Source of the DNA: a virus
Length of the DNA: 35,583 nt
Virus record (IMG/VR): IMGVR_UViG_3300031612_000029
Span: 1 to 35,583 of that record
Strand: one strand, 5' to 3'
The notes beneath the pieces are model-generated. The model made no database searches. It worked only from the letters and a program-made list of their open reading frames with translations, and was not told where the DNA came from. Below are positions 3,816 to 32,900 of the stretch, in pieces. The position numbers were made by a program, and so were the translations under genes. Each line of letters opens with the position of its first letter. The stretch's first letter is position 1.

Positions 3816-3852
3816 ATCCAGTATACTCCAATAATAGTAATCCTATAGTAAC

Positions 3853-3881
3853 ATTATATAGTATTTTTGTACGGCTGTCAA
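3853..3881 (-). promoter_or_regulatory. Consensus sigma70 promoter for gp47-gp46 operon
   Basis: On the minus strand TTGACA (3881-3876) and TATAAT (3858-3853) are both exact consensus, with a 17-bp spacer. Transcription would begin near 3846, about 30 bases before the TTG start of gp47, leaving room for the GGAG site at 3826-3829. The promoter sits between the gp55 stop and gp47, so the nuclease genes need not depend on read-through from gp55. Confidence 0.9.
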
Positions 3882-3884
3882 CCT

Positions 3885-13265: not shown

Positions 13266-16200
13266 ATGTCGTCAACAGATAGACAGTCAAGATTATTAGT
13301 ATCTGAGGACTGGAAAAGAATTTATCAATCGTTTCGTAACGCTGATTTTCAGAGTTATGACTTTGACAACCTACGTCGAGTAATGATTAATTACCTTCGG
13401 CAAAATTATCCCGAAGATTTTAACGATTATATTGAATCCTCAGAATACCTTGCATTAATTGATATGATTGCATTCTTAGGGCAAAATCTAAGCTTTCGTA
13501 CTGATCTAAATGCTAGAGAAAACTTCTTAGAAACAGCTGAACGTAGAGAAAGTGTATTACGTTTAGCACGTATGCTTGCATATAATCCTAGAAGAAATCA
13601 AACTGCAAACGGCTTATTAAAGCTTAATACTATTAAAACTACAGAAGCAATAATTGATAGCACCGGACAAAACTTATCCAATACAATTATTAAATGGAAT
13701 GACCAATCTAATCCAAACTATTTTGAACAAGTTATTAAGGTTTTAAATTCTACATTGCCAGTAACTAACCAAATAGGTAGTCCGTTAAAGTCTGCAAGTA
13801 TTGCAAATGTTATTACTCAGCAATATAGATTTAATTCAACTAACACAACTTCAGCAGTATTTCCTTTTACAAAAAGAATAGAAGGAATTAGTACTAGATT
13901 TGAAGTAGTAAGCTCTGGAATAAGCGGAGACAATGTTGTTGAAGAATCACCAATTCCGGGTACAAGTCCAGGCTTCTTATTTAGAGATGACGGCCAAGGC
14001 TCAGGAAGCTCTAATACTGGTTTCTTTATGCACTTTAAACAGGGCAAATTAGATAGCTCAACATTTAATGTTGCAGCTCCTCAGCCAAATCAAACAATAG
14101 CAGTTGACGTTACTAATATTAACGATACTGATGTTTGGTTATATAGCGTTGATGCTAATGGATTTGAAACAGAGTTTTGGACTAAAATAGATTCAGTTGA
14201 AGGCAACAATATTATTTACAATAACTTATTCCAAGGTATTAAAAATGTTTATGCAGTTAATACTAGAGTAGGTGATAGAATTAATTTAGTATTTTCCGAT
14301 GGTATTTTTGGAAACTTACCTTCAGGCAGTTTTAAAGTATATTATAGAACTAGTGAAAACACAAATAGTGTTATTACTCCTGGAGCAATGGGCGATATTA
14401 GTATTGATGTTCCATACCAAAGTAAATCAGGAAGTTTAGAAACAGCCACATTAGGCTTCAAATTAAATTATACTGTAACAAATGGATCTGCAACAGAGTC
14501 AAATGCAGACATTAAAGCTAATGCTCCTGCAACGTATTATACGCAAAACAGATTAATAACAGGCGAAGATTATAATATTGGTCCGCTGTCTATTAGCCAA
14601 GAGATTATTAAAACTAAAAGCACAAACAGAATTAGTAGTGGCGTTAGTAGATATTTTGATCTTAAAGATGTTTCAGGAAAGTACAGTAATACTAGTTTGT
14701 TTGCAGACGATGGAGTATTATATAAAGAAATATTCCTACAAAAATCTCAGTTTAAATTTACAACACAAAGTGATATTGAAGGCATTATTAATAATACTGT
14801 TGAACCAATATTAGCTTCGTCAAATACTAAAAACTTTTACTTAGACCAATTCCCTAAAACTATTGTTTCTGACTTAAATGCAAAATGGAAGCGCGAAACA
14901 ATAGCAACTAACCAATCAACAGGTACATTTTTAGATAGTACTGATGCTGCGTATATGACTGGAACATTTACTGCAAACAGTTTAAGATATATTGAGCCAG
15001 GAGCAATGTGTAGATTTACTGCTCCAACTGGGTTCCATTTTATGAAAGACGGTTCGTTAATGGCAGGAGCAGCTCTTCATATAGATTCGAGTACATATAA
15101 ATGGGCTATGGTAGTCTCAGTTGACGGTAACGGCACAATAGTTAACACAGTAAACAACAATGGTCCAATAATTTTAAACGATAACATTCCTACTAATGCA
15201 ATATTAGATAGAATAGTTCCAAACTTTTCTAGAATATTAATTGATTCTGTAAAAGTTCAAATGATTGACCAAACATTTGCTTACAAAGATTTTGGACTAC
15301 GATATGACTTAATTGATAGACAGTGGAAATTAGTTACTAACGAAAATCTTAACACACTACTAGATTTTTCGACAGGCAAAACTGGCGATACTACAGGACA
15401 AAATCTTGATTCAAGTTGGTTATTATATTTTAAAACTGACGGAGAAACTTACACTGTTACATATCGTAATTTAAAATATGTAATAGAAAGTGAAAGTGAA
15501 ATTAGATTTTACTTTGATGGAGTAGATAAAGTTTATGAACCATCTTCAGGCAAAATTGTTAGAGATAAAATTGATATTTTAAATATTAATACTAAGCCAG
15601 CATCAATAAGCCCGTTTACACAAGATTATGGATGGACTATTTCAGGAGCATATAGAGATCCAGACGGATATATTGATTCTAGAAAGATTGAAGTACAGTT
15701 TCTTGATATAGATGATGACGGTGTTGTTGATGACCCGGAACTATTTGATCAAATAGTTGATCCAGATAACACAAGCGTTACTACTGCACAAAAAACAGTT
15801 TTTCAAAAAAAATATACAACTACAGACGGTGTAGAAGATTTTAAGTATTTTTCTAATACAGATTCTACTATTACTATTGTTACTAATGAAGCACAAATAG
15901 CGCCATATAGTTCTAGGACTGAAGGGCAACTATTTTATTTAGAAGATGAAGCAGTGTTTAAGACATTAAACAAGTTGTTAAACAATACAACACTAAACAC
16001 AGATTACAAAGCATTCACAGGTAGAAGTGCATTAAAATTCCATTATATTCATGTTTCGGATAGTAGTTACAGAATTGACCCGAGTGCAAGTAACATAATT
16101 GATACTTACTTACTAACTAAATCATATGATAACAATATTAGAAAATTTATTGCAGGCGAAACGTTAACACAGCCGCTACCACAAAGCAATGACGAATTAT

Positions 16201-16793
16201 ATAGAAGTTATGGAGCTCAAATTGATAAGATTAAAAGTATTAGTGATGAGGTTATTTACTACCCTGCAAAATATAAAATATTATTTGGGTCAAAAGCCCC
16301 AGCAGATTTACAAGTGAAATTTAAAATAGTTAAAAACACAGATATTGTAACTAACGACAACGAACTTAAATCAGATATTGTTGAAGCTATTAATAGATTC
16401 TTTTCAATTGACAATTGGGACTTTGGTGAAACTTTTTACTTCCAAGAACTAAGTGCTTATATTATGAATCAATTAACTCCTAAGCTAGCATCAATACTAA
16501 TAGTTCCAAACCAAGGAACACAATCATTTGGTAGTTTATTTGAAATAAAATCTGAACCAGATGAAATTTTTGTTAGTGCTGCAACAGTTAATGATATTGA
16601 AACTATAACTGAAATTACAGCAAAAGAAATACAATCAAGCGGAACTATAGTTACTAGTTCTACAACAGCAAGTACAACTTCAGGAATTACAAGCATAGCT
16701 TCTACTTCCGCAGCTGTATCAACAGCAACTACGAGCGGCGGATTAGATACGTCATCTGCTTCATCATCATCTAGCACTGGATCTAGTTACTAA
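13266..16793 (+). CDS. 6: Baseplate wedge subunit gp6 (enlarged)
   Basis: A 1175-residue protein. The N-terminus is typical of gp6: EDWKRIYQSFRNADFQSYDF, MINYLRQNYPEDFNDYIESS, EYLALIDMIAFLGQNLSFRT and RENFLETAERRESVLRLARM. gp6 dimers form the inner ring of the baseplate and carry the change from hexagon to star. T4 gp6 has 660 residues, so about 500 are extra here. In the extra part a canonical EF-hand-type loop, DIDDDGVVDDPE, lies at residues 814-825. The C-terminal core (VEAINRFFSIDNWDFGETFY, ELSAYIMNQLTPKLASI) is the usual gp6 ending, followed by about 50 residues that are almost only Ser, Thr, Ala and Gly. gp6 ends with a TAATG overlap into the giant gene. Confidence 0.92.
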   Translation: MSSTDRQSRLLVSEDWKRIYQSFRNADFQSYDFDNLRRVMINYLRQNYPEDFNDYIESSEYLALIDMIAFLGQNLSFRTDLNARENFLETAERRESVLRLARMLAYNPRRNQTANGLLKLNTIKTTEAIIDSTGQNLSNTIIKWNDQSNPNYFEQVIKVLNSTLPVTNQIGSPLKSASIANVITQQYRFNSTNTTSAVFPFTKRIEGISTRFEVVSSGISGDNVVEESPIPGTSPGFLFRDDGQGSGSSNTGFFMHFKQGKLDSSTFNVAAPQPNQTIAVDVTNINDTDVWLYSVDANGFETEFWTKIDSVEGNNIIYNNLFQGIKNVYAVNTRVGDRINLVFSDGIFGNLPSGSFKVYYRTSENTNSVITPGAMGDISIDVPYQSKSGSLETATLGFKLNYTVTNGSATESNADIKANAPATYYTQNRLITGEDYNIGPLSISQEIIKTKSTNRISSGVSRYFDLKDVSGKYSNTSLFADDGVLYKEIFLQKSQFKFTTQSDIEGIINNTVEPILASSNTKNFYLDQFPKTIVSDLNAKWKRETIATNQSTGTFLDSTDAAYMTGTFTANSLRYIEPGAMCRFTAPTGFHFMKDGSLMAGAALHIDSSTYKWAMVVSVDGNGTIVNTVNNNGPIILNDNIPTNAILDRIVPNFSRILIDSVKVQMIDQTFAYKDFGLRYDLIDRQWKLVTNENLNTLLDFSTGKTGDTTGQNLDSSWLLYFKTDGETYTVTYRNLKYVIESESEIRFYFDGVDKVYEPSSGKIVRDKIDILNINTKPASISPFTQDYGWTISGAYRDPDGYIDSRKIEVQFLDIDDDGVVDDPELFDQIVDPDNTSVTTAQKTVFQKKYTTTDGVEDFKYFSNTDSTITIVTNEAQIAPYSSRTEGQLFYLEDEAVFKTLNKLLNNTTLNTDYKAFTGRSALKFHYIHVSDSSYRIDPSASNIIDTYLLTKSYDNNIRKFIAGETLTQPLPQSNDELYRSYGAQIDKIKSISDEVIYYPAKYKILFGSKAPADLQVKFKIVKNTDIVTNDNELKSDIVEAINRFFSIDNWDFGETFYFQELSAYIMNQLTPKLASILIVPNQGTQSFGSLFEIKSEPDEIFVSAATVNDIETITEITAKEIQSSGTIVTSSTTASTTSGITSIASTSAAVSTATTSGGLDTSSASSSSSTGSSY
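15705..15740 (+). other. EF-hand-like calcium loop within gp6
   Basis: Codons 814-825 of gp6 read D-I-D-D-D-G-V-V-D-D-P-E. Asp at positions 1, 3 and 5, Gly at 6, a hydrophobic residue at 8, Asp at 9 and Glu at 12 all fit the 12-residue EF-hand loop. Flanking helices are not obvious, so it is more like a dockerin-type or isolated calcium loop. Confidence 0.6.
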
Positions 16794-19700
16794 TGGCATA
16801 TAACGATTACCAAAATGAGAGTCCATTACCTGTGGGCGGGAAAGAAGTTAAAAAGTTAAGTATTGACTTTTTACCTAAGTTTTTTAGAACTGAAGCAAAT
16901 AGGAAATTTTTGCAAGGAACATTAGACCAGCTGATTCAGCCAGGTGTTGCAGAAAAACTTAGCGGATATATTGGTAGAGAAACTGCCAAAGCATATTCTC
17001 CTAAAGATAATTATATTGGCGATTTTAGTGATAACCGAGCCAACTATCAATTAGAACCTGCAGCAGTTATTAAAGACGACTTAGATAATGTAACTTTTTA
17101 TAAAGATTATAACGATTACATTAACCAGCTAGGTGCGTTTGGATCAAATAATAAAGACCATAGCAGATTAAATAACCAGGACACATACGGATGGAATCCT
17201 AATATTGATTGGGATAAGTTTGTAAACTTTAGAGAATATTATTGGTTACCAGATGGTCCAACTACTGTTGCTGTTAGAGGACAAAGTAAAGAAGTAACAA
17301 GTACATATACTGTAACTCTTGAAGATCAGGGCGACAATAAAGCATATGTATTTAATGACGGATTAACTAGAAATCCTACAATTAAATTGTACAAAGGGCA
17401 AACGTATCGTTTTGAAATTGATACACCTGGACACCCTATTGCATTTTCAATATCTAAAACGTTTACTCCTGGGTCGGCCGTAATTACAGCAGGTAGCGCA
17501 GGACTTAGAGCAGATGGCCAATTTGATGGCGCTTTATATGGCACTACTTACGATCAAGGCGAATACGTAGTATTGCCGAGCAGTGGTTCTTTAACCTTTG
17601 ACGCTGACGATAATGTAAGCACGTTGTATCCAACTGGGATAACAAAGTACGGAAAAGAAGGCGAAATAATATCAGTTGTATATGTCGAAGCTGGCACTAT
17701 AGAATTTACAATACCACCAAATGCTCCAGATAGGTTACACTACATTAGTAAAAACTCTGTTGATACTAGCGGACTTATTAAAATTTATAATATTGAAGAA
17801 AATTCTGCAATTAATATTACTGATGAAATAATAGGTAAAAAGTCTTATACTAGTGCAAATGGCGTAAAACTATCAAACGGGATGAAGTTAGAATTCCAAG
17901 GACAAGTAACTCCAGCAACTTATGATAACAGCCGATGGTATGTTGAAGGTGTTGGCGATAAAATTAAATTAATTAAAGAATCTAGTCTTATTATTCCAGC
18001 AGCATACGCAGCTGATAAATTAATACCATTTGATACTGATAGATTTGACGCTTTACCTTTTGCAGACGCAAAGGCATATGCAGCAACTAAAGATTATATT
18101 ACAGTTAATAGAGCAAGTAATGATAGAAACGCATGGAGCCGATACAATTGTTGGTATCATAAAGATATTATCCTTGCAAGCGAAAAATATAATAACTTAG
18201 CTACTAATTTAGACGAAGGTACTAGAGCAAAGCGTCCTATTGTTGAGTTTGAAGCAGGATTAAAATTAAATAACTTTGGAGTGTATGCTAAAGAAGATGT
18301 CGACTTAGTTGATGTATTTACTAAGGACGTTTTTAGTACAGTTGAAGGCGCAACTGGTTACAATATTGATAGTATTAATATTGCAGATGGCATGCGTATA
18401 CTATTTACTGCTGATACTGATGTATTAGTTACTGGCAGAATTTACAAAGTTAAATTTATTACAGTTAATAGTATAAGACAAATTAGTTTATTGCCAACTA
18501 CTGACGCTGCTCCTCAGAACTTAGAAACAGTTTTAGTTACTCAAGGCACAAAATATGCTGGAACTAGTTTTCATTATACTGAAAGTGCTTGGGCACAGTC
18601 TCAGCAAAAAACAAAAACAAACCAACATCCTTTATTTGAAGTATTTGATGCTAATTCAAATAGCTTTAGTGATACATCATATTATGGTTCTACAACTTTT
18701 GCAGGATCTAAAGTATTTTCTTATAAACAAGGAACAGGTACTAATGACACTGAGTTAGGATTTCCGCTAAGTTATAGGTCAATTACTAATTCAGGCGATA
18801 TTGTCTTTAACTTTAATTTATTAAATGATAAATTTACATATCAAACAGATACAGATATATTTTCCCAAAAAACAGATACTGGATATCTTAAGAAGTACAA
18901 GTCGTTAACATCTTTTAATTATGTAAATGGATTTAGTAGTATACCTACAAAATCTAGACAGATGGTTATTAGACAATACGATGTAACAAAAACATTAGTT
19001 AATAATTTTGAAGTTGATGTTTATAAAAAACCAGGTAATTTAAATGACTTAACTGTTTATGTTTATGTTGACAATGGTCTTAAATTAAATTTAGTTGATT
19101 ATGAAATTGACAGAACAAACGGATTTGCTAAAGTTAGATTTTTAAAGAATCTAACAGCTGGCCAAGTTGTTAAAATAAAAACACACAGCCCGTCAGCTAA
19201 AAGAACAAAAACTGGATATTATGAATTTCCATATAACTTAGAAAGAAATCCACTTAATGAAGATGTAACTGAATTTACATTAGGCGAAGTTATTGATCAT
19301 GTAGATACTATGATTGAAGACATCCAAGAATTTACTGGTGTATTTCCTGGAAGAGGAAGCTTGCGAGATGCAGGCGAAACAGATCATTACGGTAAAAGGT
19401 TTGTAAAACATAGTGGTCCTATTAATATTCCTTTATATCATATTACTAACAAAGATTTTAATATTGTTAAAGCTTTAAAATATTCTAAAGTTCAATATTC
19501 ATCGTTTAAAAGAAGTTTCTTAGAGCAAGCTGAATCTTTAGGCTATGACGGTCCTGTTAAACAACATGTAGACAAAATATTATTTGAACTCAACAAAGAG
19601 AAACTAAAATCACAACCGTTTTACTTCTCTGATATGTTAGCATATGGTGATGCAAACAGAATTGAGTATACTGTACTTGATTCTAAAACAACAACATATC

Positions 19701-22700
19701 CTATAACAGCTGCATTTAATTTAACTTCGCTTACTGCAAAAAGTATTGTAGTTTATTTGAATGCAACACAGTTAACGCATGGTAAAGATTATACATTTAA
19801 TACTGATGGTTATATTGTTGTTACTGCTACTAAAGTAGAAGGCGACTTATTAGAAGTATATGAATACGAAACTACAGACGGAAGTTTTATTTCGCCTACT
19901 CCTACAAAGTTAGGATTGTACCCAAAGTACTATCCAGAACTTACAATCGACGATAGTTACCTAAGTGTGCCCACTACAGTAACAGGCCCATTTAAAGTAT
20001 ACGGAGTTGATCAGCAAACAACAGCATCTCACAAAGGTAAAGTTGGATGGCACTACCCTTTATATACTAGCCAAGCAGCTGCGATTGCTGCTGACTCTGA
20101 TTCAAGCAACGATACAGGCACAGCAATGATGCATGTATTTGAAGGATCATCGCAAGTATTTTATATGCCTACTACAAATACAAATCATGCTTCTACAGAT
20201 GATGCAAGCATAGATGAATTTCCAATTGGCATTCCTATGATTAGAGGACATGACGGAAGTTATATAAAAGCTTACAAAGATTATAGAGACGAATTAATAT
20301 TAGATTTAGAAAAAAGAATCTTTAATAATATTAAAGTAGAATATTCAACCAACAAATTAGACATACAAGACTTCATAGGCGGTGAATATAGAACGTCTGA
20401 ATTTACTAAAGCTGAAGTTGATAATACATTAGTAAGCGACTTTACACAATGGCTTAGATATGTAGACAACGATTATACTAAAAATGATTTTTATGATATT
20501 AATAATACTTTTAGTTTTAATTATTCTACCGCAAATACACCTAAAGGAAATTCACATCCGGGCTACTGGCGCGGAGCATACTTACATGCATACGGAACTG
20601 ATAGACCAAATGCAACACCTTGGGAGATGTTGGGCTTTACAATGAAGCCTACTTGGTGGGACACAACTTACGGCGTTGCTCCATACTCTGGAGATAACTT
20701 AGTACTGTGGAGAGATTTAGAAGAAGGAAGAATTAAAGTACCTGGTGTAGCAGAAGTAGTTAATCCAAAATATGCAAGACCAGGATTAACTGGACATATT
20801 CCAGTAGATAGCCAAGGACGATTAAAATCTCCTCAACAAAGTAGCTATGCTAGAGGATTCTCAGCAAGAAATGGCGTAAATGCATTTAAGTTTGGTGATG
20901 TAGCTCCAGTTGAAAATGCTTGGCGCAGAAGCTCAGAATTTCCGTTTGCAGTAATTTTAGCATACTTGTTAAATAAACCTGCAAAAGTTATGGGTTTAGG
21001 ATTTGACGTATCGAGAACAAAACAAAATCTTGTTAAGCAATGGGTACAAGGCGAAACTAATAAGCCTATACAGTTATCTACTGTAAAATTACCTAACACA
21101 TATAAAGACGAAACAAGAGTATTAACATGCGGACTTGTAAATTACATTTATAATCTAGTAGCAAGTGATGTATTAACAGTTTATACAGACTATAAAAATA
21201 ATCTTGCTAACTTAAAGAATCAATTAGGATTTAAAGTAGGCGGATTCACTGATAATACTAAGTTTAATTTAATACTTGATAGCAGATCTCCTACAAAGAC
21301 TGTTGATAGAGACGGAATATTTGTCCCCCAAGAGAGTTTTAAAGTTTTTACTAATACTAGTAGCCCATTAGAGATGGTAACATATAGTGGAATAACTATT
21401 GAAAAAGCAGCTAACGGTTTTATTGCTAGAGGCTATAATAATGTTAACCCTAACTTTGAATATTACAAACCGTTACCTGGGTCTTCAAAGATAAATGTTT
21501 CAGTTGGTGGAATTTCAGAAGACTCATCAGAGTTCCGAGAAAATACATTTTATGCTAAAGGCACTATTGTAAAAATTGATAATAGTTTCTTTAGATTAAC
21601 TAAGGATTCTACATCAGGCGAAACTGTTGATACATTAACAGATTTAGCTAAGTTGCCATCACTACCTATAACTGGCGGCAAGACAGCTGAATTTAAGAAA
21701 GATTTTGATAGGACTGAATTATTTAAACTACAATACGGTACTAGGTTAACTACAACTCAAGAAGTAGTTGATTTTATCTTAGGATATAATGATAGACAGG
21801 CTGAGATAGGATTTAGTTTTAATTCAGTTAACCTTGATTTTGAAATAGTTGAAAATTGGGAAGATAGTTGTAGGGAACTGTTGTTTTGGACAACACAAGG
21901 CTGGGCAGCAGGAACAATAATTACGCTGAGTCCCGGAGCATCTAAAGTTAATTTTACAAGACCTTATGCTGTAGTAGATAATTTGTATGATAAGTTTTAC
22001 GATTATAGTCTTTTTAAGTCTGATGGACAACCTTTAAAAGCAGAAATTAACAGTTTAGTTAGAGACGGAAACTCCTTTGGTATTGAAACAGTTAATACAG
22101 ACGATGGACTATTTCATATAACATTGCCACTTGTACAAAAAGAACATGTAGTTCTTTTAGAGAATAAAACATCATTCAGCGATATAATATACGAACCAAA
22201 ATCAGGATATAGACAAGAGCGTATTAAGGTTAGTGGTTACAGAACAGATGAATGGGATGGTGGTTTAAATCTTCCAGGATTCTTGTACGATGATGCAAAA
22301 ATTACAAATTGGTCGCAGTGGAAAGATTACAAAATTGGTGAGCTAGTAAAGTACAAGCAGTTTTATTATGTAGCTAATAATAATGTTTCAGGGTCCAAAG
22401 ATTTTAAATCTTCTTTATGGTATCAACTTAGCAAGAAGCCGGAAGCAGAATTAACAGCTAACTTGGATTATAAAATAAATCAGTTTGCTGATTATTATGA
22501 TTTAGATTCAGATGGATTTGACTCTGAAAAACAACGTATGGCCCAGCATTTAATTGGTTACCAAAAAAGACAATACCTTGCAAACATTATTAATGATGAT
22601 GTAAGTCAGTTTAAATTTTATAGAGGATTTATAGCTGATAAAGGTACTATGAATTCTTTAACTAAACTATTTGAATCACTTGGAGACGGAACAACACCGG

Positions 22701-25700
22701 CATTAAGTTTTTATGAAGAATGGGCAATCCAAACAGGAAGGTTTGGAGCAACTGACAATATTAAACAAGTTGGATTTAATCTTAAAGAAGATTTAATGAC
22801 TGAAAACCCGCAAGTTTTTGAACTTGCTAAAACAGTTCCAAGCACTAACTATGATAAAATTTATTATATACAGCAACATGAAGTATATGATAAAGAATCT
22901 GATTACAATCATAAACCATTTGCAACAACTTCAGTAGCTTCGCAAGATGAATATATTAAAACCGGCGGCTACGTAGACATTAACGATGCAGCATTTGTAG
23001 CAGGCTCAATAAACGAATTAGCAGACGGTAATGTTAACGCTGTATCATTAGGCGACTATATCTGGATAACTAATACCGGAAAAGTTGGCGCTGATCGATG
23101 GAATGTTTTACAACTAGTTTCTGCTAATGTTAATGCTATAGGTGCAGTTAGACGGACTGATAGTATTTCAAATGACGGAATGGGATTAGTTACATTAACT
23201 TTAGACCAGTGGGCAAGTGTTCCTGGTGATGGCATATCTCCTAAATTTACTGAAAATGATATTATTGGTGTTCTAGGAGCAGACCAATTTAATCTTACTG
23301 GAATTTATGCTGTTAATAAAGACGGATTAAATTTAGATACTGTTACTATTAAAGCTAATATTAATAACAATGTTGAAGATTTTACAGATCAAAAGTATGC
23401 AGTAGTCAAACTTAGGCAAGTTAGAGTAGGAAGTCTTGATAACTTAAACGCTGCTAGATACGAAATTTTAGAAAAACAGCGTGTATGGTTAGATGATCTT
23501 GATAACGATTGGGCTGTTATTGAAAATAAACCAGTATACTCAACTAAAGAAGTTATTTATAATCCTTCGGAGTTTGATAGTACATCACAGCAATTTAGTA
23601 AAAGCGTAGCAATTACTTCTGATAACAATAATGTGTTTGTTTCAGCACCAGGCGATGCTAACGGTAAAGTGCATTATTATAGAAGAACTAATGAATCAAA
23701 TAATTTAGCTATTGATTCAACAATTGAACTATCTGCTACAGACGATTTGTTATCTCCGTCATCAGGACGATTTGGCGAAAGTATATCAGTTAGTCCAGAT
23801 GGTGAATATTTAGCAGTAGGTATGCCGCAAGCAACCGGTGTAAAAACAAAGTTTAAAGGTGCATTTAATGGTGTAACAACTTATACTAAAGGCGACACTA
23901 TTAAGTTTAGAGAAAGCTTATGGAAAGCAAATAGAGAAATACTTCCAGAAATTAGCTCACAATCATTTACAACGTTTGATACGTATGTTAATATTGCGGC
24001 TGCTGCAGATGCCGATAGTACAACTTTACAATTATTAGTTTCAGGCGATCCAGGATTGGCTAACAACGTAACAGACCATATACTTATTAGAGCTCCTAAA
24101 GATATGTACTTAGGTACTACGCCAGGCGACACAGTTAATCTTTATTGGAACACTAGAAGCTACGCATATCCTACATTAGATAGTTATCTTCCTTTTGGTG
24201 GAGCAATATCAGAAATTACTACAGAGTTTATAACAGGAACTCATACTATTCAACATAAAGTTGATCATGTATTATTTGTATCAACCTTTGTTACTCTTCC
24301 TCAAATAAACCAAACTGTTACTACTAGTACAGGTAGTGCAACAGTGTGTTATGTAGGAACTAAAGCTGATAGTGCAGTAATTTATCTTAAAGATACAAAC
24401 GGTATTTTTAGTGTAAGTGATGAACTTTATATTGATAATGATGTATTTGTTGGATTTTATACAGAAGCATCAACTTACAATACTAGTACAGCGGTAGACG
24501 GATTTTGGTTTATTACAACAGGCTTCCAGTATTCAAATGACGGAACATATTATGATACTGGCCGCGGCTTAGTTTATGCTGATGTTAGATTATCATCGTC
24601 TGTAAGAGTGTTAAACACTTATTCAAATATACAAAAAGCAGTTGGATACATTGGTGCGTATGTTAAAAACAAAAACAGAGCTAGTTACATTACACAATTG
24701 TCATACAGGGGCGACCCTGGCGGCACAGAAGCAGACCAACTTAGTAATCAATGGATTGTTAGAGGCGAAAAAGATTTTACTGACACTTTAGCAGTAGGCG
24801 ATACAACTGAATTTAGAGTATATAATCTTGATAATAGACAAACTGATGTTGTAACATCAGGATTTACATACGACATACTGAATAAGGAACAAACAATTGT
24901 TGATCTTTGGGATGGCTACATTGATTTTACATATGACGAGTTTGACTTTGCTGGTAATGTATTTGAACCTGTTATAGGCGACATTATTAGTGATGTACAA
25001 ATACCAAATGACGGCCAAGGCGGCCTTGCTATTACAACACAAACATCAAGTACTGCTGAAGTAGCATTTTACCGCAGAAACTTTAATAGTGTAAGAGTAT
25101 ATGTAAAATCAATAACTGGCGAATGGGCCAAATTAAATAATATTGGAAAGTACTCCATACGTCGGAATATTAACACTGTAGCACGTGGCGATGCAGATGT
25201 TGCTCGTGTTATGGGAACTGTAGCAGATGTTGAAAATGATATCGTAGTAGGAACTAGTACAGTTGGTAAGTTAATAGTGTTTAATAATTCATCACAGTTT
25301 AATATTGTTTCAAACCCAGAAATTATAGATGAAGAATATTGGTTCTTTAATGAGAATACAGAACAAGGTATTTCTCGAGTAGCAAATCCTCCGTATAGTT
25401 TAAACAAAGATTATACACAAGTGTTTAATATTGAAGCTAATGCATTAGGCAGTGTAGGCCCTGTATCTGAAGGCGCTGTAGCAATATATAGACGCAAGCC
25501 AGGTGGCGTATACGATCGTCAATACGTATTTGTTTCTGAACACAGAGAATCAAATAGAGGCTTTGGCAAAAAAGTTAAATTAGTACAGAAAGATAATTAT
25601 TATACTCTAGCTGTTTCAAGTGAGGGATTAGGAACACGGAAAGATCCGGGCAGTATTGAATTTTTCCGACATGGCACTAAACCAACTACAAAATTTAAGG

Positions 25701-28700
25701 GAAGTTATCAACTAACAATTTATGCAATTGGTGATATTGTAATCTACTTAGATGATTACTATGAATGTACTAAAGCTACTGCTACAACAACAGCTATAAC
25801 TGATACAATATTTTGGAATAAAATTAGCTGGAGAAATAGTAAAGACCGAAGCTATAGAGGTATATGGGATAATTCATATCGTTATGAAAAGGATGTTATT
25901 GTAGAATACAATGATGCACTTTATAAAGCTAAAACTAACATAGCTGCTGGCGCTGTATGGGCATCTTCTAGCTGGGAAGCAGTAAATAGCAATATTGATT
26001 ATATTGGAATGCTTCCTAATAGAACAAGCAAAACATTTTATTCTGGAGAAAGTGCATTTGATCCAATACAAAATATTCAACAGTTTAGCAAAGACTTTGA
26101 TTTAAGTGACAACGGTGATGTTCTAATCACTACTAGTGAACAAATTAAAACAGATAGTACCCGAGATATTGCAGTAGTTGTTTATAGAGAAGTTGATGAC
26201 AAGTTTCAATTCTCACAATTAATCACAGAAGCTACAACCACTGACGGCTATGCTGATAAAATTAGTTTACACCCTGATGGAACTAGATTCGCTATAAGTG
26301 CTCCGCTGGTTGATACTACTAAAATTAACCAAGGTGTTGTCTATGTTTATACACAGGATACTGCCGGAGTGTTTGGAACAGTTACTAATGCTGCATTAGG
26401 AATAACAACACCGACACAAACATTACTTCCACCACAAAATGAAGAGTCAGAAAGATTTGGTTATAATTTAAATTTTGGAAAAGAAAATTTAGCAATATCA
26501 AGCTTAAATGGCGATCAGCGTATTGCAACTAAGTTTGATACTTATGAAAAAACATTAACTGATTCTTATGTACTTGATGTTACGTCTACAAAGAAAATAG
26601 TAGCAACTACGTTTGATAAAGAATTTACTTCCTTTAAAAATATTAAAATAGATAAGGGTGTAATTTATCTTTACGAAACATTAAGTAGCAGAGTACTACA
26701 ATCAGAGACATTTACATATCCATTAGTGCAAACTAACTTTGGTGAATACATTTATACAATGGGAAATCACATATATGTTGGCATGCCACAACAGTATAAC
26801 GATACTTACAGAGGCGGATTAGTTGATTTTAGAAAAAATGCCAATGCTGGAGAAAATGCGTGGAAAGTAATTAGAAATAGTGTTCCACCTGCAGACACTA
26901 GTAAAATATTAGGTGCATTTTTATACAATAAAAAAGAAAATAAAATAATAACTTATATTGATTTTATTGATCCAGTACAGGGTAAGATAGCAGGAATAGT
27001 AGAACAAGAACTTGATTTTAAATCAGGATGGGATCCTGCGTTTTATAACACAGGCCAACTTGTAGATGATGACGTAGATCCTAACAGACATTGGGCTGAA
27101 CAGTACGTTGGTAAAACTTGGTGGAATATTGAAGCAGCTAGATTTAGGCATGCATATCAAGGATCATCTAACTACCAAAAGAATTCTTGGAATGTACAAG
27201 CCTCAGGTTCTGTTATAAACATTTACGAGTGGGTTGAAAGCCCAGTATTACCCGAAACATGGGACGGACTAGCAGATACATCTGGAGGCTTACTCCGAGG
27301 TATAAGCGGTGTTAGCTTACATGGAAATACAAAATATACTACTCGATTAATGTATGACGACATAGGTAAAACTTTTAAACAATTATACTATTTTTGGGTA
27401 GAAAATAAATCTTCTATTCCAAGTAATAAAAATAGAAAACTTAGTATTAAGCAAATGTCTAGATTAATTGGTAATCCTAAAGATCAAAAATACAGATACT
27501 TAGCACTAACAGGATCTGATAGATTTATGTTAGTAAACTGTAACGATCTTATTAGTAATGATGATGTAGTACTAAACATCAAATATACTACAACATCGGT
27601 TAGACAGCAAAAGCAAAATACACATAGTCAATATCAAATTATGTCTAAAGGGTTAGAAACAAGCAAACCTAATAGTGATATTGAAAGAAAATGGTTTGAT
27701 AGTTTAATTGGATTTGACAGTAATAATAGACCAGTTCCGGATAACAGTATCCCAGCAAAGGGTCGTTATGGAGTACAAAACAGACCAAGACAAAGTATGT
27801 TTGTTAATAGAGAAGAAGCATTAAAGCAATTCATCGAAAGAGTGAATGTAGTTTGCAAAGCTAACTTACTTACAGACGAGTATAATATTAGTGCGTTATC
27901 TAAAAAAGAACCATTACCTACTTTACTAAGCGGGGAATATGATCACAAAGTTAGTACATATGCAGAAATAAGTCTTATTAGTACAAGCAAAGTTACTCCT
28001 GCAATACTAACACCTGTTGTACAAAATGGTAAAATTACTAGTGTTACAATTACTAACCCAGGAAGGGGCTATAAAGTTCCGCCTAAGGTTTCGCTAGTTG
28101 GTAAAGGACAAAATGCTGAAATAACATTAACAGTTGATACACTAGGAAAAGTTACATCGGTCACAGTTCAAAATCAAGGCAGTGGATACGGTGACGATAC
28201 ATTAATAAGTGTAAGAAGATTTACTATACTCGTTGAAGCTGATAGCACAGTGTTTAATAAATGGGCATTATATTCTTGGAACAACACAGATAGTAAATGG
28301 TTTAGAAGAAGTATTCAAGATTATGATGTAACACAGTTTTGGGGTTATACAGATTGGTATGCTGATGGATATAATCAGTTTACAGAAATTAATGACATTA
28401 TTGCAGGCTCATATTTACTATCAAGTCTTGATAATGTAATTGGCGAAGTGGTTAAAATTAGTTCTATAGGTACAGGCGGATGGTTGTTATTAGAAAAAAT
28501 AGCAAACGAAGATACTGAAGATTATACTATTAACTACAAGACTATTGCTAGACAAAACGGAACAGTACAATTTAATGATAAAATATATGATTATAGTAAA
28601 AATACTGTAGGTTTTGATAATAGAAGTTTTGATAGTTTCTTTTATGATAACACGCCAGCAACCGAACTTACAATTATTATTAATGCAATTAAAAATAATA

Positions 28701-31700
28701 TTTTTATTGGAAACTTAGCAGTTGAATATAATGAATTATTTTTTGCATCCTTGCGCTATGTACTTGCAGAGCAAAAAGGCGCAGATTGGTTATTTAAAAC
28801 AAGTTTCGTTAAGGCTAAACATAATCTTGGTCCATTATATCAAGATAGAACTTTTAATAATAATAACTTAGCAAACTATGAATCTTATATTAATGAAGCT
28901 AAACCATACAGTACAAACGTAAGAGAATTTGTTAGTAATTATACAAATACAGAACCAACAAATACTAGCGTAAGTGATTTTGATTTACCTCCAGTATACA
29001 GTAAAGAATCAAAGTCAATAGTAGCTAGTAAAGCACAAGTAATTGACGGCGGCATAGTAAGTACTCCTGCTAGCGGTGCAGTGTATCCAAGGAAACATTG
29101 GGTTGATAATAATGGATACCAAGTTAAGGAAATTAAAATTGCTAACGCTGGAACTGGTTACTTATTTCCACCAATAGTAAAAATAACTGGAACAACAGGT
29201 TCCGGAGCAACAGCTAAAGCATATTTAGGTTACGGTAAAATAACTAAAATTGAAGTTACTAATCCCGGAACTGGATATATTATTGCACCAGTAATTACTG
29301 TTGAAGGGTCGCAAAGTCCACAAGGAACTATTGCTAAAGCAACAGCAATTTTAGGCAATGGCGTAGTTAGAAGTCCTACTATTACTGCTAAATTTGACAG
29401 GGTATCAGGAAAAGTTTATTATGCACATTTATTAGAAAATGCTACGTTTACAGGTACTGGCGATAAAACAGTATTTGATTTAGAGTGGCCAATGGACTTA
29501 TCTAGCAATAAGGTTAATGTGCAAGTTGGTAAGGACTCTACAGTATTACTTGAGCAACTTAGAAGTGCGTATACATATAAAAACGTCGAAGATACAACAA
29601 AGGGGTATACAAGAAGCCAAGGTAGAATTGTATTTACAACACCACCAACAATTGGTCATGTAATAAAAATAGAATATTACAAACCGTTAAGTATGCTTAC
29701 TGCTGAAGACAGAATTAATTTTGCATATAATCCGTCAGCAAGTATGTACGGAAAAGATTTATCACAGTTAATGACTGGTATAGATTATGGCGGAGTACAA
29801 GTTAGGAGTTTCGACTTTGACAATCCTGAAGGATGGGATAGCAAAGGATGGTATACAGACAGCTGGGATACGTTTGATAATACATATGAAGACGAAGTAT
29901 TTGTTGCAGACGGATCTACTAATGCAGTACAGCTAACTAAGCCGTTAGCAAATAATATCATGTATAATTTTTATAAGAATGGTGTTCGAATAGATGATCC
30001 AAATTATGATGTAAGCACAGTAAATACTAATCCTACAGCAATTACAAATTCTATAATTGGAGACGGAACAACACAATTACTTGATTTAGAAGTAATGGGC
30101 GTAAACTTATTAGAAGGCGATATATTAATTGTTAGAAAAACAACTAGTGATGGCAGTATTTTACCAGATGCAGATAGCTATGATACAGCATTAACTGGCG
30201 GTGACTTGGCATATTCAACAGCTACAGGAATTAGAGCTGAAGATATTATTGTAGATGGTGACGGCTTTGTTACACCTACTACAAGCGGCGGCCCAGAAGA
30301 ATTAGTTCCAGGACAGGTACTTGATACATTAGACATCAAAGTGTTTACTAGAGATAGTGCAGGACAAGGAATAATACATAGTCAAAGTTATATTATGGAT
30401 AGTAGTACAACTTATTCATTAGGAGTTATTCCTCGTACATCGCCAGCAGTATTTGTAAAAGTAAATAATGTTATCTTAGCCGATAGCTTGTATACTATAG
30501 ATTGGTCCAATAACACTGTAACACTAAATGCAGCAACTCCGGGAGCAGAGTTAAACATTATTGCTATGGCCCAAGGCACACAAAAAGTATTAGACTTTGG
30601 TACTGGACAATCAGTTGCTGGACAGTCGTCTTACTTAACTACTGTTGATTGGCAAGCTGGTGTTAGTGTTTTTGTAAGTGTTAACGGTGTTAAAACTGAC
30701 GTAGAAATATTTAATAGCGATGACAGCGGAGCACCAATTGCTAAAGTTGGTATTAGATTTAACGAACCAATAGCAGTATCCGGCAAAACAATACACTATA
30801 CTGTGTTTAGTGATAGTACAACAGTTAACTATAGTCAAGTTAGTAAAGACACATTTACAGCAGATGGAACTACTAGACTTTATACATTATCAAGCACTCC
30901 ATTTTATGCATTGCCAAATGAGCATAATATTATTGTTAAGGTTGCTAATAAAATTCTAAATCCTGGTTATAATATTGAATATACTATTCCAGCAGATAAT
31001 AATAGAGAATACAAACTTGAAACTTTCCAGCAACAAGTTGGTGCTAACGCAGCGGCAGACATTAAAGTATTTGTTGCTGGAGTAGAAAAGTTTACTCCAA
31101 ATGATTGGCGCTTTGATATTGCAAATAGCCAAATTGTGTTATCAGATGAATCAGGTAAACCTGCAGATAAAGTACAAATTTTTGCAATTACTGACGGTGA
31201 GTATAGAATAACAGGAAGAAATATTACACTTGATATTGCTCCAGATGCAAATCAAACAGTAGAAGTATTCCAGTTTTCAAATCACGATCTACTTGGTATG
31301 CAACGAATTAATTATGATGTTGTAGAACGAACACTATTAGTTGATAGTGATGTACAACAAGTAACATATAATAGATTAACTGTTGGCGAAATACCATTAA
31401 GAAGTAAAGCAGTAGATGCACAGTATGTTTGGGTAAGTGTTAACGGAGAATTACTAACACCAAGTATTGATTATTCAGTTACTGATGATCAAATGAAAGT
31501 ACAATTAGCAAGAACACCTGCAAAGAATGATGTTATTGATGTTATACATTTTTCAGAAAAGGTAAGTACAGCAAAGTTTGCTTATAGACAGTTTAAAGAT
31601 ATGTTAAATAGAACACACTTTAAGAGGTTAGATAAAGTAGCTACTACATTGCGTGAACCATTAGATAGTTACGATTTACGCATTGAAGTTGTTGATGGAA

Positions 31701-32278
31701 GTTTGCTAGCTGAACCTAGTAAAGGACAAAACTTGCCAGGTATTATTTACATTGGTAGTGAGCGTGTTGAATACTTTGTTAAAGATGGTAACACGCTAAA
31801 ACAGTTACGTAGAGGCACATTGGGAACTGGAGTAAGAAGTTCATATCCAGTAGCTCAAAAAGTATTTGATCAAAACATTGGGTTAACAGTTCCTTATAAA
31901 GACATGACACAGTCACAAAGCTTTGTAGGTAACGGTACAGTATCAACATTTACACTAAGTTTTGATGCAGGATTCAACGGACAAAATGAATTAGATGTAT
32001 TTGTTGCAGGTAAGCGTTTAAGGAAGACAACATTACAACAATTTGACCCTCAGACTGCATTAGATAGTCCAGAAGGAGATATTAAGCTACCAAGAGAGTT
32101 TGAATTTGATGCAGAAACAAACTCAATAACCGTAGCGGAAATACCATTAAACAAGACTAAAATTACAGTAATAAGAAAAACTGGACAAACCTGGACAAAT
32201 ACCGGGGAAACATTAGGAGAAGCTGAAAATTCGATAGCACGATTCTTAAGAGCAGGAACTTCGGCGCTACCAGAATAA
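16793..32278 (+). CDS. Giant multidomain virion structural protein (5161 residues), baseplate/fibre-associated
   Basis: A single uninterrupted 15.5-kb frame. Order: conserved N-terminus of the large marine T4-like structural proteins (1-163: LPKFFRTEANRKFLQGTLDQ, GWNPNIDWDKFVNFREYYWL); cupredoxin-like domain (184-325); a Trp-rich conserved part near 1260-1310 (TPWEMLGFTMKPTWWDTTYG); chitin-binding-like modules near 1837, 2352, 2964 and 3018; FG-GAP-like repeats between about 2260 and 3350; GxGY repeats near 3740-3800 and 4110-4180; a beta-sandwich array from about 4215 to the end. It follows gp6 with a TAATG overlap, the place of gp7 in T4 (1032 residues), so the N-terminus may serve as a wedge arm and the rest as a peripheral or host-contact structure. 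That role is inference. There is no signal peptide or membrane segment. No gp7, gp8 or gp10 is recognisable elsewhere in the window. Confidence 0.9.
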   Translation: MAYNDYQNESPLPVGGKEVKKLSIDFLPKFFRTEANRKFLQGTLDQLIQPGVAEKLSGYIGRETAKAYSPKDNYIGDFSDNRANYQLEPAAVIKDDLDNVTFYKDYNDYINQLGAFGSNNKDHSRLNNQDTYGWNPNIDWDKFVNFREYYWLPDGPTTVAVRGQSKEVTSTYTVTLEDQGDNKAYVFNDGLTRNPTIKLYKGQTYRFEIDTPGHPIAFSISKTFTPGSAVITAGSAGLRADGQFDGALYGTTYDQGEYVVLPSSGSLTFDADDNVSTLYPTGITKYGKEGEIISVVYVEAGTIEFTIPPNAPDRLHYISKNSVDTSGLIKIYNIEENSAINITDEIIGKKSYTSANGVKLSNGMKLEFQGQVTPATYDNSRWYVEGVGDKIKLIKESSLIIPAAYAADKLIPFDTDRFDALPFADAKAYAATKDYITVNRASNDRNAWSRYNCWYHKDIILASEKYNNLATNLDEGTRAKRPIVEFEAGLKLNNFGVYAKEDVDLVDVFTKDVFSTVEGATGYNIDSINIADGMRILFTADTDVLVTGRIYKVKFITVNSIRQISLLPTTDAAPQNLETVLVTQGTKYAGTSFHYTESAWAQSQQKTKTNQHPLFEVFDANSNSFSDTSYYGSTTFAGSKVFSYKQGTGTNDTELGFPLSYRSITNSGDIVFNFNLLNDKFTYQTDTDIFSQKTDTGYLKKYKSLTSFNYVNGFSSIPTKSRQMVIRQYDVTKTLVNNFEVDVYKKPGNLNDLTVYVYVDNGLKLNLVDYEIDRTNGFAKVRFLKNLTAGQVVKIKTHSPSAKRTKTGYYEFPYNLERNPLNEDVTEFTLGEVIDHVDTMIEDIQEFTGVFPGRGSLRDAGETDHYGKRFVKHSGPINIPLYHITNKDFNIVKALKYSKVQYSSFKRSFLEQAESLGYDGPVKQHVDKILFELNKEKLKSQPFYFSDMLAYGDANRIEYTVLDSKTTTYPITAAFNLTSLTAKSIVVYLNATQLTHGKDYTFNTDGYIVVTATKVEGDLLEVYEYETTDGSFISPTPTKLGLYPKYYPELTIDDSYLSVPTTVTGPFKVYGVDQQTTASHKGKVGWHYPLYTSQAAAIAADSDSSNDTGTAMMHVFEGSSQVFYMPTTNTNHASTDDASIDEFPIGIPMIRGHDGSYIKAYKDYRDELILDLEKRIFNNIKVEYSTNKLDIQDFIGGEYRTSEFTKAEVDNTLVSDFTQWLRYVDNDYTKNDFYDINNTFSFNYSTANTPKGNSHPGYWRGAYLHAYGTDRPNATPWEMLGFTMKPTWWDTTYGVAPYSGDNLVLWRDLEEGRIKVPGVAEVVNPKYARPGLTGHIPVDSQGRLKSPQQSSYARGFSARNGVNAFKFGDVAPVENAWRRSSEFPFAVILAYLLNKPAKVMGLGFDVSRTKQNLVKQWVQGETNKPIQLSTVKLPNTYKDETRVLTCGLVNYIYNLVASDVLTVYTDYKNNLANLKNQLGFKVGGFTDNTKFNLILDSRSPTKTVDRDGIFVPQESFKVFTNTSSPLEMVTYSGITIEKAANGFIARGYNNVNPNFEYYKPLPGSSKINVSVGGISEDSSEFRENTFYAKGTIVKIDNSFFRLTKDSTSGETVDTLTDLAKLPSLPITGGKTAEFKKDFDRTELFKLQYGTRLTTTQEVVDFILGYNDRQAEIGFSFNSVNLDFEIVENWEDSCRELLFWTTQGWAAGTIITLSPGASKVNFTRPYAVVDNLYDKFYDYSLFKSDGQPLKAEINSLVRDGNSFGIETVNTDDGLFHITLPLVQKEHVVLLENKTSFSDIIYEPKSGYRQERIKVSGYRTDEWDGGLNLPGFLYDDAKITNWSQWKDYKIGELVKYKQFYYVANNNVSGSKDFKSSLWYQLSKKPEAELTANLDYKINQFADYYDLDSDGFDSEKQRMAQHLIGYQKRQYLANIINDDVSQFKFYRGFIADKGTMNSLTKLFESLGDGTTPALSFYEEWAIQTGRFGATDNIKQVGFNLKEDLMTENPQVFELAKTVPSTNYDKIYYIQQHEVYDKESDYNHKPFATTSVASQDEYIKTGGYVDINDAAFVAGSINELADGNVNAVSLGDYIWITNTGKVGADRWNVLQLVSANVNAIGAVRRTDSISNDGMGLVTLTLDQWASVPGDGISPKFTENDIIGVLGADQFNLTGIYAVNKDGLNLDTVTIKANINNNVEDFTDQKYAVVKLRQVRVGSLDNLNAARYEILEKQRVWLDDLDNDWAVIENKPVYSTKEVIYNPSEFDSTSQQFSKSVAITSDNNNVFVSAPGDANGKVHYYRRTNESNNLAIDSTIELSATDDLLSPSSGRFGESISVSPDGEYLAVGMPQATGVKTKFKGAFNGVTTYTKGDTIKFRESLWKANREILPEISSQSFTTFDTYVNIAAAADADSTTLQLLVSGDPGLANNVTDHILIRAPKDMYLGTTPGDTVNLYWNTRSYAYPTLDSYLPFGGAISEITTEFITGTHTIQHKVDHVLFVSTFVTLPQINQTVTTSTGSATVCYVGTKADSAVIYLKDTNGIFSVSDELYIDNDVFVGFYTEASTYNTSTAVDGFWFITTGFQYSNDGTYYDTGRGLVYADVRLSSSVRVLNTYSNIQKAVGYIGAYVKNKNRASYITQLSYRGDPGGTEADQLSNQWIVRGEKDFTDTLAVGDTTEFRVYNLDNRQTDVVTSGFTYDILNKEQTIVDLWDGYIDFTYDEFDFAGNVFEPVIGDIISDVQIPNDGQGGLAITTQTSSTAEVAFYRRNFNSVRVYVKSITGEWAKLNNIGKYSIRRNINTVARGDADVARVMGTVADVENDIVVGTSTVGKLIVFNNSSQFNIVSNPEIIDEEYWFFNENTEQGISRVANPPYSLNKDYTQVFNIEANALGSVGPVSEGAVAIYRRKPGGVYDRQYVFVSEHRESNRGFGKKVKLVQKDNYYTLAVSSEGLGTRKDPGSIEFFRHGTKPTTKFKGSYQLTIYAIGDIVIYLDDYYECTKATATTTAITDTIFWNKISWRNSKDRSYRGIWDNSYRYEKDVIVEYNDALYKAKTNIAAGAVWASSSWEAVNSNIDYIGMLPNRTSKTFYSGESAFDPIQNIQQFSKDFDLSDNGDVLITTSEQIKTDSTRDIAVVVYREVDDKFQFSQLITEATTTDGYADKISLHPDGTRFAISAPLVDTTKINQGVVYVYTQDTAGVFGTVTNAALGITTPTQTLLPPQNEESERFGYNLNFGKENLAISSLNGDQRIATKFDTYEKTLTDSYVLDVTSTKKIVATTFDKEFTSFKNIKIDKGVIYLYETLSSRVLQSETFTYPLVQTNFGEYIYTMGNHIYVGMPQQYNDTYRGGLVDFRKNANAGENAWKVIRNSVPPADTSKILGAFLYNKKENKIITYIDFIDPVQGKIAGIVEQELDFKSGWDPAFYNTGQLVDDDVDPNRHWAEQYVGKTWWNIEAARFRHAYQGSSNYQKNSWNVQASGSVINIYEWVESPVLPETWDGLADTSGGLLRGISGVSLHGNTKYTTRLMYDDIGKTFKQLYYFWVENKSSIPSNKNRKLSIKQMSRLIGNPKDQKYRYLALTGSDRFMLVNCNDLISNDDVVLNIKYTTTSVRQQKQNTHSQYQIMSKGLETSKPNSDIERKWFDSLIGFDSNNRPVPDNSIPAKGRYGVQNRPRQSMFVNREEALKQFIERVNVVCKANLLTDEYNISALSKKEPLPTLLSGEYDHKVSTYAEISLISTSKVTPAILTPVVQNGKITSVTITNPGRGYKVPPKVSLVGKGQNAEITLTVDTLGKVTSVTVQNQGSGYGDDTLISVRRFTILVEADSTVFNKWALYSWNNTDSKWFRRSIQDYDVTQFWGYTDWYADGYNQFTEINDIIAGSYLLSSLDNVIGEVVKISSIGTGGWLLLEKIANEDTEDYTINYKTIARQNGTVQFNDKIYDYSKNTVGFDNRSFDSFFYDNTPATELTIIINAIKNNIFIGNLAVEYNELFFASLRYVLAEQKGADWLFKTSFVKAKHNLGPLYQDRTFNNNNLANYESYINEAKPYSTNVREFVSNYTNTEPTNTSVSDFDLPPVYSKESKSIVASKAQVIDGGIVSTPASGAVYPRKHWVDNNGYQVKEIKIANAGTGYLFPPIVKITGTTGSGATAKAYLGYGKITKIEVTNPGTGYIIAPVITVEGSQSPQGTIAKATAILGNGVVRSPTITAKFDRVSGKVYYAHLLENATFTGTGDKTVFDLEWPMDLSSNKVNVQVGKDSTVLLEQLRSAYTYKNVEDTTKGYTRSQGRIVFTTPPTIGHVIKIEYYKPLSMLTAEDRINFAYNPSASMYGKDLSQLMTGIDYGGVQVRSFDFDNPEGWDSKGWYTDSWDTFDNTYEDEVFVADGSTNAVQLTKPLANNIMYNFYKNGVRIDDPNYDVSTVNTNPTAITNSIIGDGTTQLLDLEVMGVNLLEGDILIVRKTTSDGSILPDADSYDTALTGGDLAYSTATGIRAEDIIVDGDGFVTPTTSGGPEELVPGQVLDTLDIKVFTRDSAGQGIIHSQSYIMDSSTTYSLGVIPRTSPAVFVKVNNVILADSLYTIDWSNNTVTLNAATPGAELNIIAMAQGTQKVLDFGTGQSVAGQSSYLTTVDWQAGVSVFVSVNGVKTDVEIFNSDDSGAPIAKVGIRFNEPIAVSGKTIHYTVFSDSTTVNYSQVSKDTFTADGTTRLYTLSSTPFYALPNEHNIIVKVANKILNPGYNIEYTIPADNNREYKLETFQQQVGANAAADIKVFVAGVEKFTPNDWRFDIANSQIVLSDESGKPADKVQIFAITDGEYRITGRNITLDIAPDANQTVEVFQFSNHDLLGMQRINYDVVERTLLVDSDVQQVTYNRLTVGEIPLRSKAVDAQYVWVSVNGELLTPSIDYSVTDDQMKVQLARTPAKNDVIDVIHFSEKVSTAKFAYRQFKDMLNRTHFKRLDKVATTLREPLDSYDLRIEVVDGSLLAEPSKGQNLPGIIYIGSERVEYFVKDGNTLKQLRRGTLGTGVRSSYPVAQKVFDQNIGLTVPYKDMTQSQSFVGNGTVSTFTLSFDAGFNGQNELDVFVAGKRLRKTTLQQFDPQTALDSPEGDIKLPREFEFDAETNSITVAEIPLNKTKITVIRKTGQTWTNTGETLGEAENSIARFLRAGTSALPE
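28018..28209 (+). repeat. First pair of GxGY repeats in the giant protein
   Basis: Two successive units: KITSVTITNPGRGYKVPPKV followed by SLVGKG, then KVTSVTVQNQGSGYGDDTLI. Each has the form I-x-x-V-x-V/I-x-N-x-G-x-G-Y. A second pair occurs about 1.1 kb downstream. Confidence 0.8.
29122..29313 (+). repeat. Second pair of GxGY repeats in the giant protein
   Basis: Two units: VKEIKIANAGTGYLFPPIVK with ITG, then KITKIEVTNPGTGYIIAPVI with TVEG. They match the pair near 28.0 kb at the same key positions. Such short beta units recur in phage fibre and adhesin proteins. Confidence 0.8.
29440..32190 (+). repeat. Array of about seven beta-sandwich repeats at the C-terminus of the giant protein
   Basis: Degenerate units share a plan: F/Y-x-G/A-D/N-G-T-x-x-F/Y-x-L, then V-x-V-x-V-N/A-G, a Y-x-I/V strand and a final I-x-I strand. 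Examples begin FTGTGDKTVFDLEWP (29.45 kb), FVADGSTNAVQLTKP (29.90 kb), FTADGTTRLYTLSSTP (30.85 kb) and FVGNGTVSTFTLSF (31.92 kb). Two further copies may lie near 19.05 and 19.72 kb. Confidence 0.65.
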
Positions 32279-32297: not shown

Positions 32298-32900
32298 ATG
32301 AGTGATAATATGCAAGATACAAACGGAGTACTAGTTCAAGGACATATCAAGATTTTTGATCCTGAATCAAATGATATCTATGTCGAAAAACGAAATGCAA
32401 TTCATTATGAAAATATGAGTATTGCACTAGCAGACAGTCTTAGTAATGCTGGCGCAGGGTTTATTTATGAAATGAGTTTTGGCAACGGTGGTACATCAGT
32501 TGATCCAACAGGCATTATTACATATCTTACACCTAATAGCACAGGCACAAATGCTACATTGTATAATCAAACTTATACAAAAGTAGTTGACGAAAGAAGT
32601 GTTAACAACACTGATAGTGCAAGAAATAAAACAGAAACACGGCACGTAAGCGGAACTAACTATACTGATATAGTTGTTTCTTGTTTATTAGATTACGGCG
32701 AACCAAGTGGTCAGCAAGCATTTGATAATGCAACTGATGCAGACAGTGCGTATGTATTTGATGAATTAGGATTACGAAGCTATAGTGCTAGCGGCACTGG
32801 CCGGCTTATTACACATGTAATTTTCCATCCAGTACAAAAATCATTGAATAGATTAATACAAATTGATTATACTGTTCGTGTACAAAGTTTAGCGGGTTAA
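32298..32900 (+). CDS. Small virion structural protein of the baseplate/fibre cluster
   Basis: A 200-residue, beta-rich protein. The N-terminus VLVQGHIKIFDPESNDIYVE is followed by KRNAIHYENMSIALADSLSN, IYEMSFGNGGTSVDPTG and, near the end, RLITHVIFHPVQKSLNRLIQ with IDYTVRVQ. I recall comparable proteins next to fibre genes in marine T4-like phages, annotated only as structural, so the role in fibre attachment is inference. AGGAAAT precedes the ATG, and a late-promoter-like box overlaps the end of the giant gene just upstream. Nine bases separate its stop from the next start. Confidence 0.75.
   Translation: MSDNMQDTNGVLVQGHIKIFDPESNDIYVEKRNAIHYENMSIALADSLSNAGAGFIYEMSFGNGGTSVDPTGIITYLTPNSTGTNATLYNQTYTKVVDERSVNNTDSARNKTETRHVSGTNYTDIVVSCLLDYGEPSGQQAFDNATDADSAYVFDELGLRSYSASGTGRLITHVIFHPVQKSLNRLIQIDYTVRVQSLAG

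Follow-up and report, generated by a model that had tools for sequence, protein, structure and literature searches.

The 5161-residue protein encoded by one open reading frame of a viral DNA record (IMG/VR record IMGVR_UViG_3300031612_000029; the whole record of 35,583 bases is called the window here) is probably the gp7-position baseplate wedge protein of an abundant clade of marine jumbo myoviruses, kin of RaK2, PA5oct and Atu_ph07. This reading is based on synteny, homology to the protein family phrog_10938, the presence of orthologues in virions, a short conserved segment containing the residues KGT, and the position and size of gp7 in the cyanophage P-SSM2. The window is an entire IMG/VR contig, a piece of a larger virus genome, and the giant frame takes up 43.5% of it. 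According to the record's list of open reading frames, its 15,486 bases start with ATG and contain no N and zero internal stops. A first-pass annotation, made from the letters alone, had described an uninterrupted 15.5-kb frame of 5161 residues filling 44% of the window, and this is confirmed.

The gene order of the window, as identified by profile, is gp53, a large structural protein, the hub, gp25, gp6, the giant, a 200-residue protein and Collar-domain proteins. Divergent from these, on the minus strand, lie SbcC/SbcD-type and late sigma-like genes, which were identified by synteny with PA5oct and 121Q. PA5oct has the same gene order, and it is largely kept in 121Q, Atu_ph07, Phosso, SCTP-2 and Vibrio phage 2.275.O. 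In the window and in its jumbo relatives the giant gene directly follows gp6 within a conserved baseplate cluster. The earlier statement that the frame sits where T4 carries gp7 therefore stands, the position after gp6 being that of T4. The genes of immediate concern are:

12772-13209, plus strand: gp25 baseplate wedge protein, by profile match
13266-16793, plus strand: gp6 baseplate wedge protein, 1175 residues, by profile match
16793-32278, plus strand: giant open reading frame, 5161 residues, putative gp7-position virion protein
32298-32900, plus strand: conserved 200-residue protein, orthologue of PA5oct gp357
32910-34970, plus strand: Collar-domain protein with a sub-threshold Gp10_C match and an N-terminus like that of PA5oct gp358

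The gp6 of the window, at 1175 residues, is nearly twice as long as T4 gp6 (660 residues), and the protein at the gp6 place in SCTP-2 has 3096 residues; thus expansion of wedge proteins is not confined to the giant. Other features of the cluster may be recorded here. The hub/tail-lysozyme gene (10295-12760) has at its C-terminus a glycan-cleaving domain like that of VgrG3, a type VI secretion spike protein (PF21277, E 7e-29), and not a T4-type lysozyme. The open reading frames at 32910-34970 and 34967-35581 have a common N-terminal module, MSY...ENFxxLLENFA...GQLWYDT, and both match phrog_15511 and phrog_14394, which suggests a tandem duplication. At 347-796 on the minus strand, a 149-residue reading frame with a GIY-YIG-like start (YLITNTTTGQKYIGKK) occupies the place of a Holliday-junction resolvase or endonuclease in 121Q and PA5oct.

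Profile searches with slices of the giant, which the first-pass annotation had proposed, placed it in phrog_10938, a family profile of 3324 positions that was matched by three slices (E 3.3e-225, 8.7e-97 and 3.9e-72). Matches to the giant were found by tblastn in 57 phage records, and a profile search showed that at least 590 contig stretches encode a relative. The phrog_10938 match and the synteny with PA5oct, 121Q and the others place the window among marine jumbo myoviruses, in a clade that has RaK2, PA5oct and Atu_ph07 as relatives. The N-terminus had been said to match the large structural proteins of marine T4-like phages. Among the matches listed, the N-terminal 2000 residues match jumbo phages like RaK2, PA5oct and Atu_ph07 and no others, and a profile comparison with the N-terminus of cyanophage gp7 was null.

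The length had been called extreme, and a comparison with homologues was suggested. At the gp7 place the Prochlorococcus phage P-SSM2 has a protein of 5195 residues, S-PM2 one of 3048 (p084) and HTVC008M one of 1016, and complete frames in the window's marine clade range from 5077 to 5626 residues (50 records searched whole, with frames cut by a contig end left out), so the description does not hold. Large size is a fixed trait of this clade. The isolate homologues are shorter: 121Q 3323, Vibrio phage 2.275.O 3771, SCTP-2 3807, PA5oct 3857, Atu_ph07 4449 and Phosso 4555 residues, a range of 3323-4555. Still larger predicted proteins, up to 7,694 residues and some of them tentatively structural, have been described in huge phages (PMC7162821); these are alike in size class, and the likeness is one of description rather than of sequence comparison. 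The giant is real and large but not exceptional, most likely one more representative, with many relatives, of a class of very large phage proteins already on record and not a new system.

That the protein is structural, as the first-pass annotation had it, is supported by work on relatives. The record of PA5oct gp355, the orthologue, carries the note ESI-MS/MS. In phAPEC6, gp245 (381.88 kDa) was detected by 17 unique peptides and is listed beside the baseplate wedge protein gp244 (PMC7247149), and 21 peptides of CBB_236, which lies beside the baseplate wedge protein CBB_237, were found in the virion (PMC5259590). Both are considered orthologues of the giant from their position and size. With virion presence known for three orthologues, the window's own protein is a putative virion protein.

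The giants of the RaK2, 121Q, PA5oct, Atu_ph07, Phosso and SCTP-2 type have homologous core blocks, the same position after gp6 and the same neighbours as that of the window. Blocks common to the giant and six isolates comprise residues of about 10-150, 340-950, 1146-2015, 3345-4090 and 4930-5025. The features of the giant, all on the plus strand, are:

16826-17242, plus strand: core block, residues 12-150, in all jumbo relatives
17270-17830, plus strand: beta domain, residues 160-346, longest in the marine clade, with no confident Pfam match
20228-22837, plus strand: core block, residues 1146-2015, kept in all relatives
22304-22462, plus strand: CBM5/12-like insert, residues about 1838-1890, absent from the isolated jumbo relatives
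22610-22732, plus strand: KGT segment, residues about 1940-1980, resembling the KGI segment of cyanophage gp7
23510-26827, plus strand: FG-GAP beta-propeller region with CBM5/12 modules, residues 2240-3345, the most variable part
25865-25963, plus strand: best CBM5/12 match (PF02839), 24.9 bits against a cut-off of 26.2
26825-29062, plus strand: core block, residues 3345-4090, conserved, with no Pfam or PDB match
28019-28192, plus strand: GxGY repeat, first copy
29045-32275, plus strand: C-terminal arm, residues 4085-5161, repeated fibre-like beta domains
29120-29353, plus strand: GxGY repeat, second copy
31634-31822, plus strand: RGT beta domain, residues about 4948-5010, common to cyanophage gp7

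Differences in length between the window's clade and the isolates are largely limited to a few sites. In the window's clade the stretch corresponding to residues 2120-3380 is about 1260 residues long, compared to 412 in SCTP-2 and 115 in 121Q, its propeller/CBM region being far longer than theirs. The window's clade also has an extra CBM-like insert of about 50 residues just before the KGT segment, which is found in the marine clade only. In Pfam searches FG-GAP_2 was present in 37 of 37 relatives, the window's copy scoring 23.7 bits against a cut-off of 23, and CBM_5_12 in 29 of 37, with the window's copy below its cut-off. Four of the seven C-terminal arms compared, the window's own not giving the best match, matched the N-terminal domain of the T7 tail fibre (PF03906; best E 5e-5). 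Internal domain repeats were found by profile comparison, with P-values that are optimistic since repeat profiles tend to match one another. The GxGY repeat weakly matches the tailspike Dpo31 (E 4e-4) in a search of PDB sequences, and apart from this match such searches with the giant gave no relative. The earlier view that wedge-, adhesin- and fibre-like domains are combined in this chain is thus upheld. Residues 160-346 were considered as a YHYH or cupredoxin-like domain and gave no confident Pfam match. A YHYH domain (PF14240) is present in P-SSM2 gp7 (L109, 13006-17805; E 5e-25) and S-PM2 p084 (L110, 9073-18216; E 1e-27), and two BFVD relatives bear that name.

The best conserved motif of the block at 1650-2010 is GFIxxKGTxxALxKLF, in which K, G and T are invariant; its counterpart in cyanophage and T4 gp7 is FYxxKGIExSxxxLxKVL. 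When 85 windows of the giant were compared with cyanophage gp7, the two containing KGT took the top places (P 5e-5 to 1e-4, against 0.004-0.005 for the best of the rest), and they scored 29-32 compared to a maximum of 18.7 in 47 control windows from gp6, the hub and another structural protein; the likeness is weak yet significant. Being related to one another, the three cyanophage gp7 profiles used amount to a single test. The beta domain at 4948-5010 is another common element (P 6e-5 to 2e-4). Cyanophage gp7 is itself linked to T4 gp7 at the same KGI segment (P about 1e-9), and P-SSM2 gp7 matches the T4 gp7 profile phrog_964 weakly (E 8e-5). Cyanophage gp7 (PSSM2_111 of P-SSM2 and p084 of S-PM2) has the same position after gp25 and gp6 as the giant, falls in the same size class, and has in common with it the KGT/KGI segment, GxGY repeats and the RGT beta domain, but no overall sequence homology was detected between them. 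T4 gp7 (1032 residues) also has the same position after gp6, but it is one fifth of the giant's length, and the KGI segment is reached only through cyanophage gp7. A window scan of the giant against T4 gp7 gave no direct match, phrog_964 matched nothing in the window or six jumbo relatives, and Pfam Baseplate_wedge did not match the giant. A proposal that an N-terminal LPKFFRT motif and KGT form a gp7 domain split by a 1900-residue insert was dropped, its N-terminal half being without support. It is known that gp7, gp10 and gp12 are highly divergent among T4-like phages (PMC3037559).

The first-pass annotation had also suggested structure prediction. Usable AlphaFold2 models were obtained for two core blocks, residues 1146-2240 (pLDDT 76.6) and 3345-4090 (pLDDT 79.3), but neither yielded a convincing PDB fold. 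Foldseek returned nothing from the PDB at E 0.001 or better for either, a result that excludes no fold. The best VIA-align Z-scores, 7.3 (one common barrel-like arrangement) and 3.7, were both within the chance range. A viral model library returned the structural protein of Atu_ph07 and proteins of uncultured phages. Around KGT, which lies in the part of the first model spanning about residues 740-845, confidence was low, often below 50, and no baseplate chain matched this model. Given this, the lack of T4 gp7 and Baseplate_wedge matches and the null N-terminal motif comparison, the gp7 call draws on position and about 40 residues. The giant likely works as the gp7-position wedge protein; membership in the T4 gp7 family is not proved, because the T4 gp7 profile gave no match.

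The lack of a direct T4 gp7 match, taken with the CBM5/12, FG-GAP and fibre-like beta domains, could also be explained if the giant were a peripheral, adhesin- or whisker-like tail appendage and no wedge subunit, with the gp7 function residing in an unrecognised protein; hair-like appendages do occur along the tail of RaK2-like phages (PMC5259590, PMC7247149). This is unlikely, since the core blocks are kept in all relatives, even those with very different decoration, the position after gp6 is fixed, the KGT segment is present, and no other gp7 candidate was found by profile. There is a small chance that the wedge subunit is itself a main sugar-binding adhesin, with CBM5/12 and FG-GAP domains in the gp7-position chain and gp8 dispensed with. 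If true, each wedge would have its own receptor-sensing head, and host binding would be coupled directly to sheath triggering.

The first-pass annotation, which found gp7, gp8 and gp10 unrecognisable nearby, had proposed that several wedge, adhesin and fibre genes had merged and that the product may replace gp8 and gp10. Such a merger of genes including gp7, gp8 and gp10 into one replacing chain would account for the T7-fibre-like domains in the C-terminal arms and for the fate of gp8, which cyanophages keep as a separate gene just downstream of gp7 (the order in P-SSM2 is gp25, gp6, the 5195-residue protein annotated gp7, then gp8). Searches with gp8 profiles, in which cyanophage positive controls were matched, covered the window, the complete genomes of PA5oct, SCTP-2 and 121Q, and marine contigs of 86-186 kb, and gave no match beyond the GxGY repeat. 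A gp8 hidden inside the giant was rejected because the matches to phrog_438 fall only on this promiscuous repeat, and a window-by-window comparison of the giant with the gp8 core was null. Phages of this lineage may have no gp8 at all, like contractile tails of simpler build. For a gp10-type role there is a separate candidate gene, the adjoining frame at 32910-34970, whose product carries a Collar domain (E 7e-13) and matches Gp10_C at 20.1 bits, under the cut-off of 27. At its N-terminus it resembles PA5oct gp358 (E 1e-12), a protein with a clear Gp10_C domain (E 1e-23). With this gp10-like sequence next door, the earlier remark that gp10 cannot be recognised nearby holds only in part, and one of the findings that the first-pass annotation had itself named as refuting its proposal is present in part. 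Replacement of gp8 or gp10 by the giant is not supported. Among about 100 relatives examined, none had a split giant or encoded its parts as separate genes. The multi-gene merger is not supported, and we consider it improbable.

The same survey speaks against separate genes having been joined by a chimeric assembly or sequencing artefact, an explanation whose likelihood is close to nil: the giant is a single open frame in all 98 relatives that two initial searches of viral contigs brought up, codons 1611-5161 are identical in an independent assembly (L087) bar two synonymous changes, a 93% identical relative (L007) spans residues 1-3021, and in comparisons with relatives that are 73-75% identical at the amino-acid level each block of 500 codons varies most at third positions, from which it follows that the frame is translated and subject to selection along its full length. 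The giant is real, and an assembly artefact is excluded.

How would a wedge protein of this size work? Its core (residues of about 1-150, 340-950, 1146-2015 and 3345-4090) would join gp6 and gp25 in six wedges around the hub, the contact with gp6 being modelled on T4 gp7, which assembles with gp6, and the KGT segment would belong to the wedge part. The propeller, CBM5/12 modules, GxGY repeats and fibre-like C-terminal domains would project outward from the wedge, where they may bind surface sugars, dock fibres, or both. Its length probably grew as mobile domains were added and duplicated within a single gene, at a small number of fixed sites, and not via fusion of gp7, gp8 and gp10.

PHROG files phrog_10938, phrog_12050 and phrog_11190 under 'head and packaging', and synteny points to the baseplate. 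Two public labels are corrected by these findings, that category and the 'hypothetical protein' of many records. Wedge-position proteins of about 5000 residues are a stable and common design in marine jumbo phages and no oddity, and the window's clade is the longest-bodied and best-sampled branch of the RaK2/PA5oct family of giant wedge-position proteins. The lengths of 3323 to 5626 residues within this family form a large natural series for asking how one protein of a contractile tail can gain domains while the tail keeps working.
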